Shown here: positions 42,789 to 64,000 of the stretch, in pieces
Layout: each line of letters opens with the position of its first letter
Position numbering within the stretch: position 1 is the stretch's first letter
DNA from: an uncultured Pelagibacteraceae bacterium
Lineage (GTDB): Bacteria > Pseudomonadota > Alphaproteobacteria > Pelagibacterales > Pelagibacteraceae
DNA: 64,000 nucleotides
Reading direction: 5' to 3'
NCBI GenBank assembly: GCA_902547215.1
Contig: CACCNI010000001.1
Coordinates: forward strand, 23,501 to 87,500
The notes under the pieces: generated by a model
Told to the model about the DNA's origin: nothing
The model's database searches: none
Seen by the model: only the letters and a program-made list of their open reading frames with translations
Translations under genes and position numbers: made by a program

Positions 42789-44375
42789 TTAATCATGAAG
42801 ATCCATATTAGAAGCCTTGTATGGTCTGTATTTTTCATCAAACTCCTTTCCAAGTTTAGCCATCATTTTATTTCCCTCATCATCGTTTTTTTCAGCGATT
42901 TTAATTTCAGGCCATCTTTCTCTTGGAAATTTTACGTATAAACTAAAAACTTTAGCTAATCCTGAAATCTCTTCTTTTGAAATAGTTGGCATTCTTAACA
43001 TGCTCGCACTAGTATTAGATAACGAGCAAATCTCCTCATCTTTAATATAACCTTTTTCTATTGCATATGTTCTTAAAGGTGTTCCATGATATGGTGCAAA
43101 GATAAATGCTCCGGTGGCATCAATAGTTTTAGGAAGTTTTCTTACAAAATTTATTGTATCAAATATCAAATCTCTTGTTTCATCTGGCATACCAATAATA
43201 CTATTTGCGCAAGAAGCATATTTATGCTCAGCAGCTATTTGAAAAGCCCTTATTTGTACATCATCTTTTACATTTCTTTTTAAATAATTTCTTCTGTAAT
43301 CATAATTTCCATGTTCTATACCTATATTCATTCTAAGCATATTCATTTCCTCAAGACCAGCAGCTCTATATTCTGTTATAGTTTCAGCTCTTGTATTCAT
43401 CCAAAAAGGGATTTTATAATCTGAGTAAAGCTCCTTTAATTCATCAAACTCTCTATTTGACATAGCTAAAAAAGTATCAACCACAAAATAAATTAAATTA
43501 GGATCGTATTTCTTAACTAAAAAATCTAATTCTTTTCTCATTCTCTCAATACTTTTTTTTCTATGAAATCTTCCACCCGTTTCCGCCTTGTATTCAACGT
43601 TATTTGATGGTGAATTACAAAAGGTGCATGTATATGGGCATCCTCTTTGTGTTTCAAAACCTACAGCTCTCCATATTTTTCCTTGCATAGGTCTGTACAA
43701 GCTACCTTTTTCAAATAAATCCCAATCGGGTATTGGTACTGTATCTATATCAATAGGTGCACGCATTCCATTTCTATAGATATTCCCCTCTCCTTTGATT
43801 GTGAAGTTTTTAATTTGGTCAATTCTGCCTCCTGAACATAATGCGTTTGCCATTTCAACTACCGCACCTTCACCTTCGCCTCTACAAACATAATCGACTA
43901 GATCATTTTTAATAACTTTGTCAGCTGCATATGTTGCAAAAACTCCTCCAAAAAGAGTTTTAAATTTTCTATCTTTTTCAGGTATGGACTTAAGTAAATC
44001 TATTGCTAAATAATAAGTGCTTTCTAGAACAGAAACTAAAATTAAATCTGGTTGAAATGTTGCTACTTTTTTTTTGAAATCTTCGACAATGCCTTTTTTT
44101 GGTTTTACACCTTTTTCATGCCACTCTGAATTATCGTATTTATGAACATTTCTGTTTTCAACTTTTTCTTCGTTTGTATTTTTTCCAAGTGTTAAAGAGT
44201 CTATATCTTCATAGTAAGTACAATCAAAAAGATCTAAAGGATAACCCTCTCTCTTAAGTAATGCTGTAAAAATTCCTACAGATTGAGGCATAAGTGCACT
44301 CATGTGTAAGTTTGGATAAAAAATCAAGATTTTAAAATCTTTTGGGTTTCTTTTTTTAAAAGGTGATTTAAGCAT
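42789..44375 (-). CDS. B12-binding-domain radical SAM protein
   Basis: Radical SAM motif RGCPYTCTFCNSPS; N-terminal B12-binding-like HMSALMPQSVGIFTALLKREGY. Confidence 0.85.
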   Translation of the reverse strand: MLKSPFKKRNPKDFKILIFYPNLHMSALMPQSVGIFTALLKREGYPLDLFDCTYYEDIDSLTLGKNTNEEKVENRNVHKYDNSEWHEKGVKPKKGIVEDFKKKVATFQPDLILVSVLESTYYLAIDLLKSIPEKDRKFKTLFGGVFATYAADKVIKNDLVDYVCRGEGEGAVVEMANALCSGGRIDQIKNFTIKGEGNIYRNGMRAPIDIDTVPIPDWDLFEKGSLYRPMQGKIWRAVGFETQRGCPYTCTFCNSPSNNVEYKAETGGRFHRKKSIERMRKELDFLVKKYDPNLIYFVVDTFLAMSNREFDELKELYSDYKIPFWMNTRAETITEYRAAGLEEMNMLRMNIGIEHGNYDYRRNYLKRNVKDDVQIRAFQIAAEHKYASCANSIIGMPDETRDLIFDTINFVRKLPKTIDATGAFIFAPYHGTPLRTYAIEKGYIKDEEICSLSNTSASMLRMPTISKEEISGLAKVFSLYVKFPRERWPEIKIAEKNDDEGNKMMAKLGKEFDEKYRPYKASNMDLHD

Positions 44376-44404: not shown

Positions 44405-45109
44405 TTACAACTCCAAAAAGTTTCCACTCCATAGATTGATTCCCTCGATTTCAGCTAAATCTGCGTCAAGAGTATACATTCTATCCTTATATTTTTTCAA
44501 TAATCTTTTAATAAGAAATCTATCAACTTTTGCTCTAGAGTCATAAACAAAATAGTTGCTTCTCTCAGATTTATAAAACTGTTTTCCACCTTTCATTCCA
44601 ATACCAGATATGATTACATTCGCATTTGGGTTCTCAATTAAAGCAAGTAAAATTGCATAAAATCCAGCTGAAATTCCTTGAATTTTTTTATTCTTTATTG
44701 CTTTAATTACATGAACAATCTTTTTTAGTATTTTTTCTTGATGACAAAATTCCGAAATAAATAAAGAAAAAAAACCCAACTTAAAAAAATTCGATTGAAA
44801 ACACCATTGATCAAAATTTGATATACATTTTAATTCGGTGAAACCGTTCAAATCATTAGGTAAATTAATAACACCTGATCTAATTATTAATCTATTAGGT
44901 TTTGAATTTATAATCCTTTTGCTTACATGTTCATTTCTTGCAAACTCTGATGCGCCTGTTGTACAAATTAACTCATTTTCTGGATATTTCTTTCTATAAA
45001 AACTTGCTCTTTCAGCTGCCCCATTTGCTGTATAAATTTTTGATACTTTTATATTTGGAAGTTTTGAATCTGGTTTAGATCCTAACACAAGAACATTATA
45101 ATCTGGCAT
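44405..45109 (-). CDS. Uncharacterised protein resembling GT42-type sialyltransferases
   Basis: GISAGFYAILLALIENPNANVIISGIGMKGGKQFY resembles the GT42 core; 14-bp overlap with a KdsB-like gene. Confidence 0.45.
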   Translation of the reverse strand: MPDYNVLVLGSKPDSKLPNIKVSKIYTANGAAERASFYRKKYPENELICTTGASEFARNEHVSKRIINSKPNRLIIRSGVINLPNDLNGFTELKCISNFDQWCFQSNFFKLGFFSLFISEFCHQEKILKKIVHVIKAIKNKKIQGISAGFYAILLALIENPNANVIISGIGMKGGKQFYKSERSNYFVYDSRAKVDRFLIKRLLKKYKDRMYTLDADLAEIEGINLWSGNFLEL

Positions 45110-45830
45110 TTCTATTTATAATTTTTCTGACAAGCATTAAAGATTCCTTTGTATCTACTGAAATTGACTTGTTAGACATATTTATCATTTTTATTTCTTG
45201 ACCTAATTCTAAAAACCTTAATAGTTCACAATCTTCCATGCTCTCAAGTGGTGTTTTTTTTCTAGTAGAACTAAATACTTTTAAAGATTTATAAGGTAAT
45301 GAATAAATACAAACTTGTCTCCAAGCATAAACATATTTTTTTTCTTTTGTAGTTGGTATTGGAGCTCTGGATTGATAAAGGAGTCTTCCATCTTTTCTAA
45401 AAACTACCTTTGGTATATGTCCTGAATAAAAATCTTTTTTGTTTGTAATTTTCGTATATCCATTAATTATTTTGTTAGGATACTTTTTTGCATACCTTAA
45501 TAATTTTTTTATGTCTGACGTATTACAAATTGGTTCGTCCCCTTGGACATTTAAATAGAACTTAGCTTTATATTTTTTAGCTACTTCTGCAATTCTATCT
45601 GTACCAGTCAAACAATTTTTTGATGTCATAACTATTTTAATATTTTCTTTTTTACAAACTTTTTTGATTCTTACGTCATCAGTAGCCACTAATATTCTAG
45701 ATTTTGAAATTACCTTTGCACATTGCCTGTATGTCCTTATGATCATTGGTAAACCACAAATATCAAGAAGAGGTTTTCCAGGAAGTCTTTTTGATTTATA
45801 TCTTGCAGGTATAACTAAATAATATTTCAT
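45096..45830 (-). CDS. KdsB-like CMP-ulosonate cytidylyltransferase
   Basis: VIPARYKSKRLPGKPLLDICGLPMI, NVQGDEPICNTSDI, YKSLKVFSSTRKKTPLESMEDCELLRFLELG. Confidence 0.85.
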   Translation of the reverse strand: MKYYLVIPARYKSKRLPGKPLLDICGLPMIIRTYRQCAKVISKSRILVATDDVRIKKVCKKENIKIVMTSKNCLTGTDRIAEVAKKYKAKFYLNVQGDEPICNTSDIKKLLRYAKKYPNKIINGYTKITNKKDFYSGHIPKVVFRKDGRLLYQSRAPIPTTKEKKYVYAWRQVCIYSLPYKSLKVFSSTRKKTPLESMEDCELLRFLELGQEIKMINMSNKSISVDTKESLMLVRKIINRNARL

Positions 45831-45837
45831 TAATTTT

Positions 45838-47451
45838 TTAAAATGCGTATATAGATCTGGATTTTACTTTATACTTTGTTGGTGTAACACTTATTATTTC
45901 GGCTTTTCTTTTTAAAGATTGGTACAGCAAAAACAATTCATCCATTTCTCTTCTTTTAGGATCGTTAGCATCATAACCGTCAAAACCTGCAAGAAAAATT
46001 TTTTTTGCCTTTCCGCTATTTGATATGGCTAAAGCATAACTTATTGCAAGCGAATTGGGTATTACTGCAGAAGAGTTTTTAAATTTAAATGTATTGCTTC
46101 TAATTTCAACCCCAAAATCCAATTTTTTCATTTTCTTAAATTTGTCCCTAATTGAACTAGACAATCTCTGATAAGGTAAGATTAATTTTTGTGGAAGACG
46201 TTTAAAAGAGTTGTGATCTGTAAGTAATCTTAAGGTGTTGCAAACAGCTCTAACATTTATAAGTTTTGGATTTATATTTCTTTGTGTATTTAAAGCAATA
46301 ACAAAGGGTTTAAATTTTTTTATAAAACTTTCTATGGCTAATCTATGCTCTTTTACACCAGGACCCGAACCAACAATAAGTACATTTTTATTTTTTAGAT
46401 TTTTTGATGGATTGTAACTTCCTTTTTTAGCACCCTGAAAATTTTGACTATATGTTTGCAAAAGATCTTTACTAAATTTTTTTCCACCAGTTGTTTTTAA
46501 ATTGTCTATAACTGCTAATATTTCAGCAGAATTAAAACTTTTGGCCTCAAGCATGCCTTGAATAAAACTAGGGTGTATACCGTATAGTCCAGATAAGTAA
46601 TAGTATGGATTACTTCCCCATGAGAATTTTTTTTTCATTGGCATGAAATCTTCATCAACTAATTTTAATAACTCAGAGTAATTTACTTTTTTATTGAATT
46701 TTTTTTCCAATTCAATAATTAGACTTTCGGTTGTTACATTTCCAGGACCTCTGCCCATACCTAAAACAGTTGAGTCCACCCAATTTGCACCCTTTTCGAT
46801 TGCAGTAATAGAGTTTTCCATAGCTTTGCCCATATTATCGTGGGCATGAATTCCTAAATGTCCATCCCAATATTTTTTAAATATATTTGTTATTTCTGAG
46901 GTTCTTTTGCTATTTAAACTTCCTGTGCTATCTGCAAAATACAATATATCTATATTATTTTTTTTTGATAATTGACAAAAATTTTTTATTTCATTTTCTG
47001 ATCTATCAGAACTTTGCATCAAATTTAATGCAATTTTAAACCTATATGATTTAAATTTTTTTATAAGTGGCATAACTTTTTGAATTTCGTTGTAATGACA
47101 TGCTATTCTGACTAGTTTTATTTTTGATTTATTCGAGGTAGTAAATAGTTTTTCTATTAACTTCATATTTTTAGATAAAGTATTGTTTTTTACCAGTTCA
47201 GATGCATTAACCATAACCGCTAGTTTAATATTTTTAGGTATTTTAATTGAGTTTAAAAATTCATCAGTAGAGTAGGCGCACGCTCCTCTAAATTCTTTTT
47301 TTTCTAAAGATCTAAATCCAATTTCAACATAATCAATCTTTATTTCTGCCATAGATTGAAGATATTTTTCAATTAGATTAATTGAGAAATTCCAATTATT
47401 ATAATACCCTCCATCTCTAAGAGTGCAGTCTAAGTGATAAATTTTTTTCAT
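45838..47451 (-). CDS. HMGL-like aldolase with an extra C-terminal sialyltransferase-like/Rossmann domain
   Basis: LDCTLRDGGYYNNW, VEIGFRS, GIHAHDNMGKAMEN (aldolase); C-terminal NVLIVGSGPGVKEH...LAISYALAISNSGKAKKIFLAGFDGYDA. Confidence 0.75.
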   Translation of the reverse strand: MKKIYHLDCTLRDGGYYNNWNFSINLIEKYLQSMAEIKIDYVEIGFRSLEKKEFRGACAYSTDEFLNSIKIPKNIKLAVMVNASELVKNNTLSKNMKLIEKLFTTSNKSKIKLVRIACHYNEIQKVMPLIKKFKSYRFKIALNLMQSSDRSENEIKNFCQLSKKNNIDILYFADSTGSLNSKRTSEITNIFKKYWDGHLGIHAHDNMGKAMENSITAIEKGANWVDSTVLGMGRGPGNVTTESLIIELEKKFNKKVNYSELLKLVDEDFMPMKKKFSWGSNPYYYLSGLYGIHPSFIQGMLEAKSFNSAEILAVIDNLKTTGGKKFSKDLLQTYSQNFQGAKKGSYNPSKNLKNKNVLIVGSGPGVKEHRLAIESFIKKFKPFVIALNTQRNINPKLINVRAVCNTLRLLTDHNSFKRLPQKLILPYQRLSSSIRDKFKKMKKLDFGVEIRSNTFKFKNSSAVIPNSLAISYALAISNSGKAKKIFLAGFDGYDANDPKRREMDELFLLYQSLKRKAEIISVTPTKYKVKSRSIYAF

Positions 47452-47464
47452 AATTCAAAAATAT

Positions 47465-48205
47465 TTATTTTTCCATATTTTTTAGAATATTTTTAAAAAT
47501 AGTTTTATATTTATTAATCTGTTTTTTATCTCTGTAAATGAATACGTTTTTTTCGCTTTTTTGTCTAGATATTGATCTTTTGCTCAAAATATCACTTTTT
47601 TTATCTAGGTAGATATAATAGTCAGCTCTATCAATTAAATTTAAATATTTTAAAAGCTTAATTTTATTAATTTTGTTTTTATTTACCAAAAATAGGGATC
47701 TTTGAAGAAAACCCTCATCAAACAAAATAATTTTGTTAGATTTCAGTTTTTTTGCAATATAAAATTGTGCAAAAAGTTCTATAAACCACCTTTTAAAAAT
47801 TAATTTTTTATCTTTATCCTTTATTTGATTTATCTCTCTCGATACAAAATTTACTAGTAAAGGGTTTTTTCTTTTATATAAAAAAAAAATTTTTTTACTT
47901 ACTAACAAATACTTATTAAATAAATAACTTGAATATTTATTATTAAAATTTTTCTTATTAATTTTTAATTTTCTTAAATTTGAATTTAAATTTTTTGTTT
48001 TTTTAACAGAAAATTTTTTGAAATTTTTCACAAACAACATATATTTCAACGAAATTTTTTCAATATATGACAGTTTTATAAAATTTTTTGCATACTCATG
48101 GATTAGATAATTTGACAGAATAATTGATTTATTTTTCTTCTTTAAATAATTGCAAACATATGTTTTTCCACAACAGGGTGGACCAAAAAATTCAATTATT
48201 TTCAT
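47465..48205 (-). CDS. Small P-loop kinase-like protein of unknown substrate
   Basis: MKIIEFFGPPCCGKTYVCNYL Walker A; LFDEGFLQRSLFL. Confidence 0.55.
   Translation of the reverse strand: MKIIEFFGPPCCGKTYVCNYLKKKNKSIILSNYLIHEYAKNFIKLSYIEKISLKYMLFVKNFKKFSVKKTKNLNSNLRKLKINKKNFNNKYSSYLFNKYLLVSKKIFFLYKRKNPLLVNFVSREINQIKDKDKKLIFKRWFIELFAQFYIAKKLKSNKIILFDEGFLQRSLFLVNKNKINKIKLLKYLNLIDRADYYIYLDKKSDILSKRSISRQKSEKNVFIYRDKKQINKYKTIFKNILKNMEK
48037..48088. repeat. Left arm of a 52-bp inverted repeat (51/52 identical)
   Basis: acatatatttcaacgaaattttttcaatatatgacagttttataaaattttt; reverse complement at 48316-48367. Confidence 0.95.
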
Positions 48206-51921: not shown

Positions 51922-52731
51922 TTAGATCATTTTTTTAAAAATAGCTGTCATCATATTTCCAACACTTGGTGGAGAATTTTTTTTTATCTTTTTTTTATAT
52001 GTTTTGAGTTGTCTTTTTAAGTTTTTAAAATCATTGTCTAAATTTGCATACGGAGTATCTAAATATTCATATCTCATTACAATGTTTAAAAAACTATTTT
52101 TTAAAAAAAGTAAACTTAAATTAACATTATTAAAATGAAATAAATGTCCAGGGTGATTTTGATTAAAATCTTTATTAGATAAAAAAAATGTTAAATTATT
52201 AGAGTTGGGTGTTGCAGTTATATAAAATAAACCATTTTTATTAACACATTTTGCGAGTTTTTTGATTATTTCCTCAAAATTTGGAATATGTTCAATTACT
52301 CCCCTCATAATTATTAAATCATATTTTTCTTGAAAAACTTCTTTAATAGAAACTCTTCTTACGCTCGTGTCTACCCTGGCATCCTTATTAAAGTCATAAC
52401 CAATTTTTTTTGATTTGAATAACTTTAAAAAAGTACCATTCCCACAACCATAATCTAGTATTTTATTATTTTTGTTATCTTTGTAATATTTTAAGATTAT
52501 TTTTTTATCTAGTTTATATTGAATTTTTCTTAATTTAAAATCATTATTATTTTTCAAATAATTTTGATTAAAATATTCTTTACTATAAAGATCTTTTAAT
52601 TTTTGATTATTCGGTAAAGGATACTGGAATACAAATAAACAATTATTGCATCTATAATATCTTATCTGACTATGGGTATATAAATACGATTTATTTAGAT
52701 TTATAATTTTGCCACAGATTTTACATTTCAT
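51922..52731 (-). CDS. Class I SAM-dependent methyltransferase with N-terminal zinc ribbon
   Basis: CKICGK...YRCNNCLFVFQYP, KILDYGCGNGTFLKLF, MRGVIEHIPNFEEI. Confidence 0.85.
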   Translation of the reverse strand: MKCKICGKIINLNKSYLYTHSQIRYYRCNNCLFVFQYPLPNNQKLKDLYSKEYFNQNYLKNNNDFKLRKIQYKLDKKIILKYYKDNKNNKILDYGCGNGTFLKLFKSKKIGYDFNKDARVDTSVRRVSIKEVFQEKYDLIIMRGVIEHIPNFEEIIKKLAKCVNKNGLFYITATPNSNNLTFFLSNKDFNQNHPGHLFHFNNVNLSLLFLKNSFLNIVMRYEYLDTPYANLDNDFKNLKRQLKTYKKKIKKNSPPSVGNMMTAIFKKMI

Positions 52732-53915
52732 ATAATTTTTGATTCTATGAATTTTTTTACTTTTCTTATTATATATTTTTGATCAATTGAGCTTAGCCCT
52801 GGATATAGTGGAAGACTAACGATATTATTGCCAATTTCATAGGCATTTGGGCACGTTTTTTTGTTCCAATTAAATAAAGATTTATAATTTTTCATATTTG
52901 TTACTGACCTATAATGTACGCCACCACCTATTTTATTTACATTTAGATATTTTAAAAATACATCTCTAATATTTTTTTGTTTGAACTTATTGGTATCAAA
53001 AACAAACAAAAACAAATGATACCCATGTTTAAAATTATATTTATAATTGTTTTGTAATTTAATTGGATAATTTTTTAATTCATTATAATAAGTATCATAC
53101 AGCTTCTTTCTTTTTTTCCACATGTAATTAATTTTGTTTAACTGTTTTATTCCTAAAGCTGCATTTAAATCTATCATATTGTATTTTAATCCTGTGTGTA
53201 AAATATCATAATGTTGATACGGCAAATTCTTAGGAGTGTTATCTGGCATGTATCTTTTCCATGCATCTCTAGTCATTCCATGTAAGCGCATAATTTTCAC
53301 TATTTCTGCTAATTTCCTATCCTTACAAGTTAACATTCCACCTTCACCAGTCGTAATATTTTTATTAGAGTAAAAACTATAACATCCAGAATAGCCAAAA
53401 TTTCCAACCTCTTTTTTTTTATATTTTGACTCAATTGCATGAGCACAATCCTCAATTATTTTTATTTTATATTTATTGGAAATTCTAATTATTTCACTCA
53501 TATCACACGGTAATCCTGCAAAATGAACAATTAAAATAGCTTTTGTATTTCGATTTATCTTCTTAATTATTTCCTTTGGATCAATATTAAAATCATTTTT
53601 TGATATATCGGCTAAAATTGGTTTAGCTCCAGATAAAATGATACTATTTATAGTAGAGGCAAAGGTCATTGGAGTAGTAATTACTTCGTCAGTTTTCTTT
53701 AAATTCATCGATAACAAGGTTAAATGAAGTGCAGCTGTACATGAATTAACTGATATAGCAAATTTAGTTTTTTTAAATTTCGAAAAGTCTTTTTCAAATT
53801 GTTGCGTTATCTTGCCAGTTCCTAACCAAGAAGAATTAATTACTTTTTTTACTGAATCAATCTCTTCTCTCCCAAGAAATGGTTGTCCAAAAGAAATGAA
53901 TTTTTTTTTTGCCAC
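52728..53915 (-). CDS. DegT/DnrJ/EryC1/StrS aminotransferase
   Basis: FGQPFLGREEIDSVKKVINSSWLGTG, ISVNSCTAALHL, EDCAHAIESKYKKKEVGNFG, FYSNKNITTGEGGM. Confidence 0.93.
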   Translation of the reverse strand: MAKKKFISFGQPFLGREEIDSVKKVINSSWLGTGKITQQFEKDFSKFKKTKFAISVNSCTAALHLTLLSMNLKKTDEVITTPMTFASTINSIILSGAKPILADISKNDFNIDPKEIIKKINRNTKAILIVHFAGLPCDMSEIIRISNKYKIKIIEDCAHAIESKYKKKEVGNFGYSGCYSFYSNKNITTGEGGMLTCKDRKLAEIVKIMRLHGMTRDAWKRYMPDNTPKNLPYQHYDILHTGLKYNMIDLNAALGIKQLNKINYMWKKRKKLYDTYYNELKNYPIKLQNNYKYNFKHGYHLFLFVFDTNKFKQKNIRDVFLKYLNVNKIGGGVHYRSVTNMKNYKSLFNWNKKTCPNAYEIGNNIVSLPLYPGLSSIDQKYIIRKVKKFIESKII

Positions 53916-53984
53916 AATTGTTGTATAAACTAGTAAATAATCAAATACAATTAAAACTTGAGTTTATAAAAGAAGAACAAAATA

Positions 53985-55289
53985 ATGAAATCTACTAAAA
54001 AATTATGGATGCAGTGCAAATTATTAATACCTGGAGGTAATGGATTGATTTCAAAAAGACCTGAAAGATATTCTGAAGATAAATGGCCAACATTTTATAA
54101 AAAAAGTAAAGGACTAAACGTATGGGATTTAAATGGAAAAAAATATAAAGATATGTCTCAAATGGGTATCGGAACCTGCGTCTTGGGATATGCAAATCAT
54201 TACATAGACAGAAGAGTAAAAAAAGCAATAGATATGGGAGTTAATAGTACTTTAAATAGCACTGAGGAATTAAAACTAGCAAAAAAGATTCTTAAACATG
54301 ACAAATTTGCTCAAAAGGTAAAATTTGCAAGAGGTGGAGGTGAGGCAATGGCAATAGCCGTAAGAATTGCAAGAGCTGCACAAAAAAAAGATTTCGTCGC
54401 ATTTAGTGGTTATCATGGTTGGTATGATTGGTACTTAGCAACTAATTTAAAAGGTAAAAATAGATTGAAAAATCATCTATTGCCCGGCTTAGAACCCTTG
54501 GGTGTTCCAAAAGCTCTTAAAAACACAATTTTTGGATTTAAATATAATGACTGCGATGATTTTAAGAAGAGGGTAAAAAATAAAAATTTAGCTGCCATCG
54601 TTATAGAGGGTTGTAGATTTCAAAATCCAAATAGAAAGTTTGTCAGAGAAATAAATAAGTTTTGCAAAATCAATAATGTTTGCTTAATTGTAGACGAAAT
54701 TACGTCTGGCTGGCGCAGTACTATTGGAGGCGTATACAAAAAATTTGGCTTGAAACCAGATATTGTTATTTACGGGAAAGGAATTGGTAACGGTTATGCG
54801 ATATCCTGTATTGTTGGGAAAAAAAAATATTTAAATTACGCAAATGAATCTTTTATAAGTAGCACTGCATGGACTGAGAGAATAGGCTTCGTTGCTGCCA
54901 ATTCAACCATAGATTTTTTTTTAAAAAATAATGTCCACTTGGAAATTGAAAAAAACGGAGAGTATTTAATAAATAAGTGGAGGTTATTGAGCACAAAGCA
55001 CGGTCTAAAAATTAATTTTTCAGAAAATCCAGCGTTAGCATCTTTTTACTTTGGCTATTCCAATCAAGTAAACTCTAAAATTTATAAGTTTTTTACTGAT
55101 CGAATGTTAGATTATAATTATCTTGCAAATAATAGTATTTATTTGTCATATGCCCACAAAAAAAAGGAATTAGATAGCTACCTTAAAATTTGTGATAAAA
55201 TTTTCAAAGAAATAAGAGATTTGGTTAATAATGATAGTAAAATATATAAACTTAAGTCTAGGAAAGAAAGTTTCAAAAGACTTACCTAA
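53985..55289 (+). CDS. Class III aminotransferase, glutamate-1-semialdehyde aminomutase-like
   Basis: VKFARGGGEAMAIAVRIARAA, FSGYHGWYDWYLA, IVDEITSGWR, DIVIYGKGIGNGYA. Confidence 0.9.
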   Translation: MKSTKKLWMQCKLLIPGGNGLISKRPERYSEDKWPTFYKKSKGLNVWDLNGKKYKDMSQMGIGTCVLGYANHYIDRRVKKAIDMGVNSTLNSTEELKLAKKILKHDKFAQKVKFARGGGEAMAIAVRIARAAQKKDFVAFSGYHGWYDWYLATNLKGKNRLKNHLLPGLEPLGVPKALKNTIFGFKYNDCDDFKKRVKNKNLAAIVIEGCRFQNPNRKFVREINKFCKINNVCLIVDEITSGWRSTIGGVYKKFGLKPDIVIYGKGIGNGYAISCIVGKKKYLNYANESFISSTAWTERIGFVAANSTIDFFLKNNVHLEIEKNGEYLINKWRLLSTKHGLKINFSENPALASFYFGYSNQVNSKIYKFFTDRMLDYNYLANNSIYLSYAHKKKELDSYLKICDKIFKEIRDLVNNDSKIYKLKSRKESFKRLT

Positions 55290-56053
55290 TGAACGATTGT
55301 ATATTAGTTCAAGCAAGAACAGGTTCCCAGAGATTAAAAAACAAAATTTTGTTAAAAATACAAGGTAAAACTGTTCTAGAGATATTAATATCTAGGCTTA
55401 AAAAGTGTAAGAAAATACAGAACTTAATAATAGTCACAACAAAAAAACCTAAAGATGATATTATTATAAGAATTTGTAAAAAAAATAAAATTGACTTTTT
55501 CAGAGGTTCCGAGAATAACCTTATTAATAGATATTATAAATGTGCAAAATATTATAAAGTAGACAATATCATAAGAATTACATCTGACTGTGTTCTTATT
55601 GATCCTAAAATAATCGATAAATTATATTCAGTTTTTAAAGCAAAAAAATTGGATTATGTGTCAAACACTACACCGCCTAATAAAAGTACTTTTCCTGATG
55701 GAACTGATGTTGAGATATTTTCATTTAATGTTTTGAAAAAATTAAATCGAGTTTGTAAATCTAAAAGTGATAAAGAGCATTTAACTGATTACATTTGGCG
55801 TGATAGTAAATTTAATACTTACACATTGAAGAATAAACTGGACTTATCTAAATTTAAATACTCTCTTGATTATAAATCTGACTACAACTCTATAAAAAAA
55901 ATTTTTAATATTTTAAAAAAAAAGAAAAAATTTGGATATATGATGGAAGTAATAAAAATTGTGAAAAAAAATAAAAAAATGCTATCCTTAATGAAGCGCT
56001 CACGAGAAATGTATTTAAAAAATAAAAAAATAAATCAAACCAAGTATTTATAA
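55289..56053 (+). CDS. SpsF/NeuA-like cytidylyltransferase
   Basis: LVQARTGSQRLKNKILLKIQGKTVLEILISRL, RITSDCVLIDPKIID; start codon overlaps upstream stop. Confidence 0.85.
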   Translation: MNDCILVQARTGSQRLKNKILLKIQGKTVLEILISRLKKCKKIQNLIIVTTKKPKDDIIIRICKKNKIDFFRGSENNLINRYYKCAKYYKVDNIIRITSDCVLIDPKIIDKLYSVFKAKKLDYVSNTTPPNKSTFPDGTDVEIFSFNVLKKLNRVCKSKSDKEHLTDYIWRDSKFNTYTLKNKLDLSKFKYSLDYKSDYNSIKKIFNILKKKKKFGYMMEVIKIVKKNKKMLSLMKRSREMYLKNKKINQTKYL

Positions 56054-57868: not shown

Positions 57869-60424
57869 ATGAAAAAAATAGTGATTACAGGTGGCTTAGG
57901 TTACATTGGTAGTGAGCTTTGTAAAATTTACTCAGGTTACAGTTGGTTATATGACATTAAAGTTATTGATAATAGATTTATATCAGGACGAGTAAATCAA
58001 CTAAGAAAGTGGAACATGAAATTTTTTCATGGAGACATTCTAGATCAGGAATTGATAAAAAAGTTATGTCATGATGCTGATGTAGTACATCATTTAGCAG
58101 GTATAACGTCTGTACCAAGAGTCGCTAGTGAGGCTAATAAAGAAAAAGAAAAGGAGATCGAAATTAATGCAATTGAGGGTACTCAAAATATATTAAATGC
58201 GATTAGAGACGATTGTAAAATAATAATGCCATCTTCACATGTGGTTTATGAAGGTTTAAAAGATGTAAAATTAAATATTAAAGAAGACGAAGTAACTTGC
58301 CCTAAATTATCCTATGGAAAATCAAAAGATGCAAACGAAAAACAATTAAAAAAATCAGGAAAGAACTATATAATTTTAAGATTAGGTTCTGTCTACGGTT
58401 ATTCAGAAGATGCGACACGTTTAGATATAATGACAAATCTTTTTTGTAAACTCTCTTCACAAAATAAAACCTTAAAACTTTTTGCAGGTGGAAGGCAAAT
58501 TAAAAGCCTAATTCCTGTTATTGATGTTGCCAGGTGTTTTAAATTTATGGAGGAAAGAAAAGATATTAATTATGAAATATTTAATACTTCTAAAGATACT
58601 GTGACTGTAAAAAAAGTTTCTGAAATATGTAGAAAATATAACCCTAAGACTAAAATACTAGAAACTAATGATGAAGTTCCTAATTTAGGATTTTCATTGT
58701 CAAACAAAAAACTTTTAAAAACAGGATTTAAATTTCTTTACAGTTTGGATGAGAGCATAAGAGATATGATAACAAAATTATCAAAACAAAGCTTAGTAAA
58801 AGATATTGAATATGTTCAAAGTGGAACAGATGAATTTGTTGATAGCAGGGGCAAGATAAGTAACTTTGAATTAACTGAGCCAGTGAACATGATTGGATTA
58901 ATTGACTCAAAAAAAGGCACATTGAGGGCTAATCATTTTCATCCTCAACAAGAACAAAAATGTTTATTCACAAAAGGACAAATAATTGAGGTTTTTAAGG
59001 ATCTATTAAATCCAAATTCTCCAAAAATTACTCAGGTAGTTAACGCGGGACAAATTTCAATAATAAAACCAAATATAGCACATACAATGATTTTTTCTAA
59101 AGATACTACGTTTTTAAATTTAGTTAGAGGTGAAAGAGAACACAAAAACTATGGAATTACTCATACAATTAAGCATATTTTTGTTGACGAAAAAGAGAAA
59201 AATTTACTCTTAAGTTGTTATAAATTTGAATGTAGATCTTGCGGCAGTAATAGACTTCAAAGATTTATATCTTTAGGATATCAGCCTCTTGCAAACAATC
59301 TTTTAAAAAAAAGAGAGGAAAAAACAGATTTTTATCCTTTAGAGGTAAATTATTGTGATAAATGTCACAATTGTCAGCTATCAGTAGCTGTAGATCCAAA
59401 GAAAATGTTCTCAAACTATTTATATACATCCTCAACATCAAAGAAGTTTAGAGATCATTTTTCTAAAGCTGCTAATAAATATATCGATGAATTTAAGCTT
59501 AAACCAAATAAGTCTTATATAATTGATGTTGGTAGTAATGATGGAATAGCACTTAAGCCCTTTAAAGACAAAAAGTTCAAAAGAATTTTAGGTATTGAGC
59601 CTGCAAAAAATTTATCAAAATTAGCAAATAAAAATAAAATTAAAACATTTAATGGTTTCCTCAATAATCAAAATATGACAAAAATAAAAAAGAATGCTGA
59701 TTTGGTTTTAGCATCAAATGTATTTGCTCATTCTGACGATCTTACAGGCATGGCAAAATGTATGATAGGGCTATTAAAAAAAAACGGAAATTTAATAATA
59801 GAGGTACAATATTTGGTTGATACACTCAAAGAACTTACTTTTGATAATATTTATCATGAACATTATAATTATTGGTCACTAACTTCATTAACAAATTTTT
59901 TCAAAAAATTAAATACAAAAATTTATAGAGCTGAGAAAATAAATACTCACGGAGGTTCTTTAAGGATTTATTTAAACAAAAACAAAAATATTAAGGTAGA
60001 AAAAAGTGTGAATAGAATTTTAAAAGAGGAAGAAAAATTTGGCATAAAAAAATTTCAAACTTACAAAATTTTTGGTGAAAAGATCAATAAGATAAGAGAA
60101 AATATTAATAAAAACTTAGACAAAATAATAAATAAAAATAACAATATAATTGGATACGGGTCTCCAGCAAAGGCAACGACTTTTTTAAATTTTTTTGGTA
60201 TTAATAATAAAAAGTTAAAATATGTAGTAGAGGATAACATCCTAAAACAAAACAAATTTATACCAGGTGTAAAAATTAAAATTGTAAATAAGAAAAAATT
60301 TTATGGGAAAAAAAATACCGTATTAGTATTAGCCTGGAATTTTTTTGAAGAAATAAAAGCATCAAATAAAAAATTAGGTAATAAATTTATTAATATTAAA
60401 GATTTGGAAAAGAATAATTTATAA
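57869..60424 (+). CDS. Tri-domain protein: extended SDR + cupin + zinc-binding C-methyltransferase
   Basis: TGGLGYIGSELC, YGKSKDANEKQL (SDR); RANHFHPQQEQKCLFTKGQIIEVF (cupin); CRSCGSNRLQRFISLGYQPLANNLL...CDKCHNCQL, IDVGSNDGIALKPFK, GYGSPAKATTFLNFFG (C-methyltransferase). Confidence 0.88.
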   Translation: MKKIVITGGLGYIGSELCKIYSGYSWLYDIKVIDNRFISGRVNQLRKWNMKFFHGDILDQELIKKLCHDADVVHHLAGITSVPRVASEANKEKEKEIEINAIEGTQNILNAIRDDCKIIMPSSHVVYEGLKDVKLNIKEDEVTCPKLSYGKSKDANEKQLKKSGKNYIILRLGSVYGYSEDATRLDIMTNLFCKLSSQNKTLKLFAGGRQIKSLIPVIDVARCFKFMEERKDINYEIFNTSKDTVTVKKVSEICRKYNPKTKILETNDEVPNLGFSLSNKKLLKTGFKFLYSLDESIRDMITKLSKQSLVKDIEYVQSGTDEFVDSRGKISNFELTEPVNMIGLIDSKKGTLRANHFHPQQEQKCLFTKGQIIEVFKDLLNPNSPKITQVVNAGQISIIKPNIAHTMIFSKDTTFLNLVRGEREHKNYGITHTIKHIFVDEKEKNLLLSCYKFECRSCGSNRLQRFISLGYQPLANNLLKKREEKTDFYPLEVNYCDKCHNCQLSVAVDPKKMFSNYLYTSSTSKKFRDHFSKAANKYIDEFKLKPNKSYIIDVGSNDGIALKPFKDKKFKRILGIEPAKNLSKLANKNKIKTFNGFLNNQNMTKIKKNADLVLASNVFAHSDDLTGMAKCMIGLLKKNGNLIIEVQYLVDTLKELTFDNIYHEHYNYWSLTSLTNFFKKLNTKIYRAEKINTHGGSLRIYLNKNKNIKVEKSVNRILKEEEKFGIKKFQTYKIFGEKINKIRENINKNLDKIINKNNNIIGYGSPAKATTFLNFFGINNKKLKYVVEDNILKQNKFIPGVKIKIVNKKKFYGKKNTVLVLAWNFFEEIKASNKKLGNKFINIKDLEKNNL

Positions 60425-62103: not shown

Positions 62104-62961
62104 TTAATCAGTATGTCTTCTATAAGGTTTTATTTGTTGTTCTATTTCTCTTAATCTCATCTCAGGCTTTCCGAGTATAGTTTCCATACGCCTAATATTT
62201 TTTACCATTTCAGTTAGTGTACTAGGATCTGCAGATAAAGCATGGTCAGGCCCTTCGTCTTGAGTATTAAGTGTAAAATGTTTTTCAATTATTTTTGCTC
62301 CAGACGCAACCGCCATTACTGGAATTTCAACACCGATTGTGTGATCTGAATAGCCTACCGGCCCCGAATGATATGTCTTTAAAAGATTTATCAATGATAA
62401 GTTAGCCTCTTTCGATGGTGTTGGATAAGATGATATGCAATGCAATAAAGCCAATTCACAACCTGATCCATCATCTTTTCCTCCAAGTGATTTCCACGCA
62501 TCACCAAGCTCTTTTACATTAGTCATTCCAGTAGACATTATCACAGGCTTTTTTGTACTAGCTACTTTTCTTAGTAAAGAGTGATTAACGGTATCAAAAC
62601 TTGCAATTTTATAAGCTGGGCAGTTTACTGACTCCAAAAAATCTACTGACTCGTCATCAAAAGGTGTACTAAAAATAGTGATTCCATTATTTTTACCATG
62701 TTTAATACATTTCTCTTGTTGATCAAAACTAAGTTCTGAATCTTTTAGAATTTTAAATATAGGGGAGTCAACTGCAACTCTCTTTTCGGTTAAATAGCTT
62801 TGCATTTTGACTGCATTTGCTCCAGCAGATTTTGCTTCATCAATTAATTTTATTGCCTTGTCTAGATCACCACCGTGATTAATTCCTATTTCAGCAACTA
62901 TATAAGTTTGATTTTTTTCACCAATTTCATAACCGTCAATATTTATTGATTTTCTATTCAT
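62104..62961 (-). CDS. NeuB-family nonulosonic acid synthase lacking the C-terminal SAF domain
   Basis: YIVAEIGINHGGDLDKAIKLIDEAKSAGANAVKMQ, FSTPFDDESVDFLE, YKIASFD, STGMTN, LLHCISSYPTP, GYSDHTIG, EKHFTL; ends at QQIKPYRRHTD (285 aa). Confidence 0.9.
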   Translation of the reverse strand: MNRKSINIDGYEIGEKNQTYIVAEIGINHGGDLDKAIKLIDEAKSAGANAVKMQSYLTEKRVAVDSPIFKILKDSELSFDQQEKCIKHGKNNGITIFSTPFDDESVDFLESVNCPAYKIASFDTVNHSLLRKVASTKKPVIMSTGMTNVKELGDAWKSLGGKDDGSGCELALLHCISSYPTPSKEANLSLINLLKTYHSGPVGYSDHTIGVEIPVMAVASGAKIIEKHFTLNTQDEGPDHALSADPSTLTEMVKNIRRMETILGKPEMRLREIEQQIKPYRRHTD

Positions 62962-63081
62962 AATAATTTTTTTTTAATACCTATATATCAATTAATATAT
63001 ATTTTTAAAATTAAAAGTATAATAAATTAAAATCTATGACAATTAATACTAATTTTGAGTTAGTTTTATTTCATAAAATGC

Positions 63082-64000
63082 TTATTTCATTAGTTTCAGA
63101 TAAATTAGTTTTTTAATTCTTTTTAACCCCTTTCCATCGATAAACTTAGGAGCCATTTTATTTATCTTATTTCTCTTTAATGAGTCAGTAATCAAATTAT
63201 TTAAAACTTTTTGAAAAAACAATTTATTTAATTTCATTTTATTTGAACCTAAAAAGGTTATTCCAAACTTTCTTAAATTATTTATTGTATTTAGTTGATG
63301 TTTGTATTGAGGTAGGCTAATTGTTGGTATCCCATAAGCAGCAAACTCAAATAAAGAAAGACCACCTGAAGTAACCCCAATATCAGCTTTCTTGATTATT
63401 GTCTGAAAATTCTTGGGATAGATAAATAATTTTATTTTTGAAGTTAAGTTATATTTTTCAATTTTTGAACGATAAAGCTTGACCAATCTTTTATCACTTT
63501 GCCCTAATATTATATTAATATTAATATTTAATGGTATTTCTGGAATCGCTGTTAAAAAAAAATTAGTTAATTTTCTCTTATCCACTCCTCCAAACGTGAC
63601 GACTATATTTTTAATTTTTTTTCTAAATATTGATTTTTTGTAAATTTCTCTTGATAAAATAAGGTAATTATAACCACTATACAAATTAGTTTTCTTCTTA
63701 CCTAAATATAAACTTCCAATTGATAAATGGGCTAAATTTAAGTGTTTTGCAAATTCATCAAATATTAAAATTTTATAACCAATTTCTTTAACCTTTATAA
63801 TTAGATTAGAGTTCAATTTAAAAGTATCAAATATTGCTATATTTTTCGAATTAGGATCATATAAATTATTAAACTCTAATATTTCAAGTTTAGAAACTTT
63901 TGATATCGTCTTATACTTAAGTTTTTCTTTTGAAATAATTTTTTTACCGTACTCATAACCTGTAAAATCTCTTGTTAGAAAACAAACATCTTCTTGTTTA
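63082..64000 (-). CDS. PseG-like UDP-sugar hydrolase / MurG-like glycosyltransferase fold, partial at window end
   Basis: IVVTFGGVDKRKLTNFFLTAI, KKADIGVTSGGLSLFEFAAYGIPTISLP; the frame stays open past the listed TTG start to the window edge (KQEDVCFLTRDFTGYEYGKK...). Confidence 0.65.
   Translation of the reverse strand, partial: KQEDVCFLTRDFTGYEYGKKIISKEKLKYKTISKVSKLEILEFNNLYDPNSKNIAIFDTFKLNSNLIIKVKEIGYKILIFDEFAKHLNLAHLSIGSLYLGKKKTNLYSGYNYLILSREIYKKSIFRKKIKNIVVTFGGVDKRKLTNFFLTAIPEIPLNININIILGQSDKRLVKLYRSKIEKYNLTSKIKLFIYPKNFQTIIKKADIGVTSGGLSLFEFAAYGIPTISLPQYKHQLNTINNLRKFGITFLGSNKMKLNKLFFQKVLNNLITDSLKRNKINKMAPKFIDGKGLKRIKKLIYLKLMK

Follow-up and report, generated by a model that had tools for sequence, protein, structure and literature searches.

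We analyzed a 64,000-nucleotide stretch of an uncultured Pelagibacteraceae genome (contig CACCNI010000001.1, positions 23,501 to 87,500; hereafter, the window) that carries, in three adjacent minus-strand genes, an aldolase fusion protein (ALD), a KdsB-like cytidine monophosphate (CMP)-ulosonate synthetase, and an orphan small protein (P3). ALD likely catalyzes the first step, and the KdsB-like protein the last, in the synthesis of a CMP-3-deoxy-2-ulosonate, in which an aldolase would replace the phosphoenolpyruvate (PEP)-dependent step of KdsA or NeuB. The module is apparently a widespread, uncharacterized pathway of bacteria and phages; a search of the open-access literature (subscription papers were not covered) found no description of this aldolase-synthetase pair. 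An earlier note on this DNA (hereafter, the original prediction) had proposed such a module, and its three open reading frames (ORFs), their coordinates, the quoted motifs, and the 14 bp shared by the P3 and KdsB-like genes (45096 to 45109) were all found in the ORFs and their translations.

The aldolase domain of ALD

Residues 4 to 264 of ALD match the HMGL-like (DRE-TIM) family (PF00682, 1.3e-28, over the cutoff) and are followed by about 200 further residues, which agrees with the HMGL-type aldolase half and extra C-terminal domain described in the original prediction. The top NCBIfam models are those of 4-hydroxy-2-oxovalerate aldolase, ranking above homocitrate and isopropylmalate synthases, with all scores far under the cutoffs. 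Among solved structures, 3dxi, described as a "putative aldolase," is closest (1.3e-47; its alignment spans the aldolase half of ALD only), followed by the DmpG-type structures 8ih7 and 1nvm. Relative to DmpG (1nvm), ALD retains the Arg and metal-ligand positions (R12, D13, H202, and H204), the roles of which we presume from general knowledge of DmpG. Among 101 ALD homologues, R12 and D13 are each conserved in 98% and H202 and H204 in 99%, with the compared residues overall at 97 to 99%. By these sequence comparisons, ALD is a DRE-TIM metallolyase with a DmpG-like aldolase domain, for which pyruvate aldol activity is predicted.

Linkage of ALD to CMP-ulosonate synthetases

Within the family of the window genome, 26 of 197 genomes match ALD well above the general HMGL background; 21 of these have close full-length relatives, one of which is divided between two ORFs, and the remainder have divergent ones. 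The 20 close ALD loci outside the window genome have a KdsB-like neighbor in 17 cases, a NeuA-like neighbor in two, and neither in one. We also scanned named genomes, taking the best 80 of at least 588 ALD relatives; some of these loci come from genomes also present in the family survey, and some lie at contig edges. Carriers among the best 80 included Marinobacter, Halomonas, Pseudomonas, Idiomarina, Shewanella, Brenneria, Bacillus, Prochlorococcus, Spirochaetes, and Omnitrophota. A CMP-ulosonate synthetase was encoded ≤2.6 kb from ALD in 70 of these 80 loci and a HAD phosphatase beside it in 51, with ALD-synthetase-HAD being the commonest order (40/80). In some lineages, a NeuA-type synthetase stands in for KdsB. 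The linkage that the original prediction proposed to survey is thus conserved and no chance grouping, with a synthetase beside ALD at 19/20 family loci and 70/80 named loci. The original prediction did not include the HAD phosphatase that usually completes the set as its third gene, the NeuA-type enzymes that stand in for KdsB in some lineages, or the viral fusions described below.

Leisingera plasmids carry the ALD-synthetase-HAD triad inside a capsule-type cluster; together with the named-genome survey, they rule out that the linkage is a SAR11 peculiarity. In E. coli, no DNA-level match to a Brenneria ALD gene was found, with distant protein relatives still possible.

Two arrangements met during the surveys are recorded here as separate observations. 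At L053:7170-9492, ALD and KdsB form a two-gene island; a gene resembling a DNA methyltransferase lies downstream, and no glycosyltransferase was recognized beside the pair. At L086:10446-11995 and L120:10415-11955 (also in L119), an HpcH/HpaI aldolase gene (PF03328) directly precedes another KdsB-type gene, with HAD and ALD genes near; this pair is possibly a second aldolase-based ulosonate module.

The linked KdsB-like enzyme differs from housekeeping KdsB

The KdsB-like call of the original prediction was confirmed by profile matches to PF02348 (CTP_transf_3; 5.8e-40) and to NCBIfam PRK13368 (266 bits; cutoff, 255). Against the kdsB equivalog TIGR00466, the window protein scores 140.5 bits, below the cutoff of 155.2, which the housekeeping KdsB of the same genome passes (168.2 bits). 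That genome has its housekeeping kdsB beside pheA and a kdsA beside pyrG. In a phylogenetic tree, 68 ALD-linked KdsBs separate from nine housekeeping KdsBs with support of 99/94. The original prediction had left room for the KdsB-like gene to be the sole housekeeping kdsB of its genome; the second kdsB beside pheA and the clade split rule this out, and kdsA is present as well.

The two clades also differ in a sequence signature. All nine complete housekeeping KdsBs have HxGIY and EQ[LM]R, while 70 of 73 ALD-linked KdsBs have QVCIY-like residues, nearly always with an EILR-like motif. The window protein reads QVCIY/ELLR, with no housekeeping HxGIY/EQLR. These motifs lie in the C-terminal domain of KdsB, which binds 3-deoxy-d-manno-oct-2-ulosonic acid (Kdo) (PMC3149649). 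We infer that the linked KdsB acts on a substrate other than Kdo; the product of the ALD-linked pathway is probably not Kdo.

ALD and KdsB are fused in viral sequences

A single ORF with an N-terminal ALD part and a C-terminal KdsB-like part occurs in three different viral sequences (L179, L181, and L183), and L184, L185, and L191 have the same ORF as L183; the viral origin of these contigs is the IMG/VR assignment. For L179 and L183, Pfam matches confirm the two parts. The KdsB domains of the fusions show the same variant signature as other ALD-linked KdsBs, and the fusions have no MptE-like domain (see below). Genes for GT29 sialyltransferases are located near on L179 and L180, as are MptE-like genes on L179 and L183, which suggests virus-encoded glycan decoration.

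The C-terminal domain of ALD and P3

The original prediction read both the C-terminal domain of ALD and P3 as GT42-like transferases that attach the ulosonic acid. The likeness holds at the fold level for the C-terminal domain, which is of the Maf/MptE type, but not for P3. The Pfam MptE-like family (PF01973) was found in 33 of 81 homologous ALD C-terminal domains (best, 7.1e-7); the domain of the window ALD scores 13.2 bits, short of the cutoff of 34.6. With an AlphaFold2 model of this domain (predicted local distance difference test [pLDDT], 96.8), Foldseek retrieved first the Maf glycosyltransferase 5mu5 (E = 6.8e-6; template modeling [TM] score by query length, 0.64) and then SteA and the archaeal MptE 8sd5. 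Stand-alone MptE-like proteins encoded in the same type of cluster align with the domain in hhalign (probability, 87.8), and one stand-alone MptE-like protein weakly matches the Kdo-III transferase model WaaZ (5.3e-5). The Maf_flag10 domain (pfam01973) has in turn been reported to be similar to Cst-II (PMC11339370). By its modeled structure, the C-terminal domain of ALD belongs to a Maf/MptE/WaaZ/GT42-related fold group.

The claim that the C-terminal domain is a transferase is therefore borne out as relatedness to CMP-ulosonate transferases but not as an obligatory function. An obligatory transferase is disfavored because the domain is fused to the first enzyme of the pathway, which would be unusual for a transferase, and is missing from the viral ALD-KdsB fusions, where separate GT29 or MptE-like genes are found instead. 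An alignment of homologues also revealed no conserved His in the domain. The domain most likely binds a CMP-sugar or nucleotide. Other HMGL-superfamily synthases bear C-terminal regulatory domains, and because of this analogy, our first guess is feedback sensing or channeling, which we hold with a little less than even confidence. Our second guess, that the domain is an active transferase, appears rather unlikely.

Searches of Pfam, NCBIfam, and PDB sequences returned nothing for P3, and its model (pLDDT, 84.7) gave no Foldseek match at E ≤ 0.001 against the PDB and viral libraries. Comparison of P3 with the ALD C-terminal domain and with MptE-like proteins gave hhalign probabilities of 1.9 and 0.2, respectively, with sensitivity limited by a P3 alignment of only six sequences. 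P3 as a GT42 protein thus found no support in profile, hhalign, or Foldseek searches, in which no GT42 family alignment was compared directly. Of 397 genomes in the family of the window genome, 6 (its own included) have a good P3 homologue, and P3 lies next to a KdsB-like gene in the window as well as in L158 and L161; by position only, a transferase role for P3 is possible. Taken whole, the reading of the C-terminal domain and P3 as a pair of GT42-like transferases gains from this adjacency, from the Maf-like and Cst-II-like fold of the former, and from its stand-alone relatives in the same clusters, but the lack of any match for P3 and the points raised above against an obligatory transferase leave it doubtful.

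Probable independence from KdsA and NeuB

The draft genome of the Gram-positive Rossellomorea contains ALD-KdsB-HAD, with no KdsB/NeuA-type synthetase besides the ALD-linked one (a second PF02348 hit, within a 471-amino-acid frame, is weak). In this genome, the KdsA profile gave a sub-cutoff match only, and the NeuB profile gave only a weak match of 32 bits (formally over its low cutoff of 22.1). Both matches fall on one locus, a chorismate-mutase/DAHP-synthase-like gene. A KdsA or NeuB that could supply the linked synthetase was thus not found in the Rossellomorea draft; such enzymes are present elsewhere, and the window itself holds a NeuB-family gene. Bacillus sp. ISL-41 carries both ALD-KdsB-HAD and, a few genes away, a complete kdsB-kdsA-kdsD-kdsC operon; if Kdo were the product of each, the two sets would duplicate one another, and the arrangement therefore suggests that they make different sugars. 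In another genome of the class Bacilli, ALD-NeuA-HAD forms a three-gene insert in a housekeeping region, the flanks of which we take, by eye, to be murA and a spoIID-like gene on one side and spoIIQ/mbl-like genes on the other. The cross-phylum linkage, the viral fusions, Rossellomorea without KdsA or NeuB, and the second, housekeeping kdsB of the window genome all favor the bypass of KdsA/NeuB by an aldolase and KdsB-like module that the original prediction had put forward.

The same evidence bears on a simpler account, in which the linked KdsB activates ordinary KdsA-made Kdo and ALD supplies something else, such as a different keto acid, the product of a Claisen reaction, or a substituent of the glycan. 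The linked enzyme has a clear KdsB-family identity, KdsA is also present in most of the Gram-negative carriers tested, and the DRE-TIM group includes Claisen enzymes, albeit with lower scores against ALD. This account is nonetheless improbable given that Rossellomorea lacks KdsA, that viral proteins combine ALD with KdsB in one chain, that the linked KdsBs form their own clade with an altered signature, and that the place of KdsB next to the same ALD can be taken by a NeuA-type synthetase. It is more improbable still that ALD runs in the retro-aldol direction, recycling or editing ulosonic acids instead of making them: pyruvate aldolases of the DmpG and NanA types are generally known to be reversible and often catabolic, but ALD is linked to an activating CMP-synthetase, glycosyltransferases, and polysaccharide export genes, is fused to the synthetase in viruses, and has no catabolic neighbors that we noticed.

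Several observations weigh against ALD and the linked synthetase being the two ends of an aldolase-based route. ALD scores 93.4 bits against TIGR03217, the 4-hydroxy-2-oxovalerate aldolase equivalog with a cutoff of 286, and its Tyr16 occupies the position of the catalytic His of DmpG (His21). The ALD of L049 has no adjoining synthetase; conversely, ALD is missing from genome G176 (95% complete), in which a variant KdsB adjoins P3. The absence of KdsA and NeuB from Rossellomorea rests on one draft assembly. Finally, no HAD gene lies in the window, and the HAD family was not found in the window genome (795 kb, 31 contigs), a negative of little weight, since the assembly is 67% complete and the search had no control genome.

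A proposed pathway and its relation to known systems

In the route that we favor, the metal-dependent DRE-TIM domain of ALD would join pyruvate and an aldose, the latter most likely in phosphorylated form, to give a 3-deoxy-2-ulosonate (phosphate). The HAD-IA phosphatase encoded next door in many genomes would then take off the phosphate; in the window, which has no such gene, the substrate may be an unphosphorylated aldose, or a different phosphatase may act. The KdsB-like (elsewhere, NeuA-like) synthetase would load CMP, as expected from its family, and GT29, MptE-like, or other transferases encoded near could transfer the sugar to surface glycans.

The predicted sequence of steps parallels the Kdo pathway (KdsD-KdsA-KdsC-KdsB), in which an ulosonate (phosphate) is made, dephosphorylated, and CMP-activated, and the synthetases of the two systems are homologous. 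The module differs in having a DRE-TIM aldolase for the PEP synthase KdsA, a HAD-IA phosphatase that is not of the KdsC type, and a KdsB clade with a changed signature; the two gene sets stand side by side in Bacillus L144. With the NeuB/NeuA (PseI/PseF) pathways of nonulosonic acids, the module shares an expected CMP-ulosonate product and, in some lineages, a NeuA-type synthetase, but it lacks NeuB, and a pyruvate aldolase is expected in place of PEP condensation. ALD has the DRE-TIM fold of DmpG/BphI and 3dxi with the Arg and metal-ligand residues retained, and it departs from these proteins in the Tyr for the DmpG His, a different C-terminal domain, a biosynthetic sugar context, and sub-cutoff scores. 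Its C-terminal domain shares a fold with Maf and MptE (PF01973) and, through the reported likeness of the Maf domain, with the GT42 enzyme Cst-II; unlike them, it is fused to an aldolase, and the window member falls below the Pfam cutoff. The module would be a new variant of CMP-ulosonate synthesis, for which the gene linkage, the fusions, the folds, and the lack of alternative enzymes were observed and the chemistry and product are predicted.

A broader version is put forward only tentatively. ALD-synthetase-HAD may constitute a third, pyruvate-aldolase route to CMP-ulosonates in Gram-negative bacteria, Gram-positive bacteria, and viruses of microbes, with a product that is neither Kdo nor sialic or pseudaminic acid and with an ALD domain, derived from CMP-ulosonate transferases, that senses the product or hands it on. 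If the pathway is real, a recurrent set of genes with generic names ("aldolase catalytic domain-containing protein," "KDO cytidylyltransferase," and "HAD hydrolase") could be tested as a single pathway to an acidic surface sugar, and an aldolase route would be added to the PEP-based routes of KdsA and NeuB. A "kdsB" annotation could then no longer be equated with Kdo in every case, and the synthesis of CMP-sugars from pyruvate would gain a set of enzymes. The compact viral versions, including the two-enzyme fusions, point to surface-glycan remodeling or the decoration of viral particles.

Genomic setting

The module lies in a long, AT-rich surface-glycan region (~22 to 33% G+C) with glycosyltransferases, aminotransferases, and a NeuB-family gene (Table 1). 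Close hits of the survey carry the name Pelagibacteraceae, which makes the window genome SAR11-like. A promoter and terminator scan gave a signal no better than in shuffled sequences.

Table 1. Features of the ALD locus (window coordinates)
Feature	Coordinates	Strand	Description
B12-binding radical SAM enzyme, downstream	42789-44375	minus	PF04055 and PF02310; possible tailoring enzyme (methylation?)
P3, orphan small protein	44405-45109	minus	234 amino acids; candidate transferase by position only, unconfirmed
KdsB-like CMP-ulosonate synthetase	45096-45830	minus	244 amino acids; ALD-linked variant clade
ALD (aldolase fusion)	45838-47451	minus	537 amino acids; aldolase domain (residues ~1-320) and C-terminal domain (~340-537)
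C-terminal MptE/Maf-like domain of ALD	45838-46440	minus	200 residues modeled
P-loop kinase-like protein, directly upstream	47465-48205	minus	AAA_28/AAA_18 weak, below cutoff; possible operon member

L159 encodes a homologue of the P-loop kinase-like protein directly upstream of ALD, and L160 has one upstream of P3. Relatives of the B12-binding radical S-adenosylmethionine (SAM) enzyme occur near ALD, KdsB, or P3 in L040, L069, L070, L126, L158, and L160, and it is possible that this enzyme methylates the sugar. A different radical SAM gene, of the SPASM type, is found repeatedly by the module in SAR11 (L045:6200-7087; L040, L114, L123, L134, L159, and L161), often together with an SDR gene, and is not found in the window.

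Elsewhere in the window, positions 52728 to 56053 and 62104 to 63816 hold an apparent canonical nonulosonic-acid gene set, which consists of a DegT/PseC-like aminotransferase, a class-III aminotransferase, a NeuA/PseF-like cytidylyltransferase, a NeuB-family synthase (62104 to 62961; PF03102, 6.7e-75), and a PseG-like fragment. Because this set is located in the same region, the cell may make two different CMP-ulosonates. Positions 57869 to 60424 encode an 851-amino-acid fusion of a nucleoside diphosphate-sugar epimerase, an unmatched middle segment, and a C-methyltransferase.

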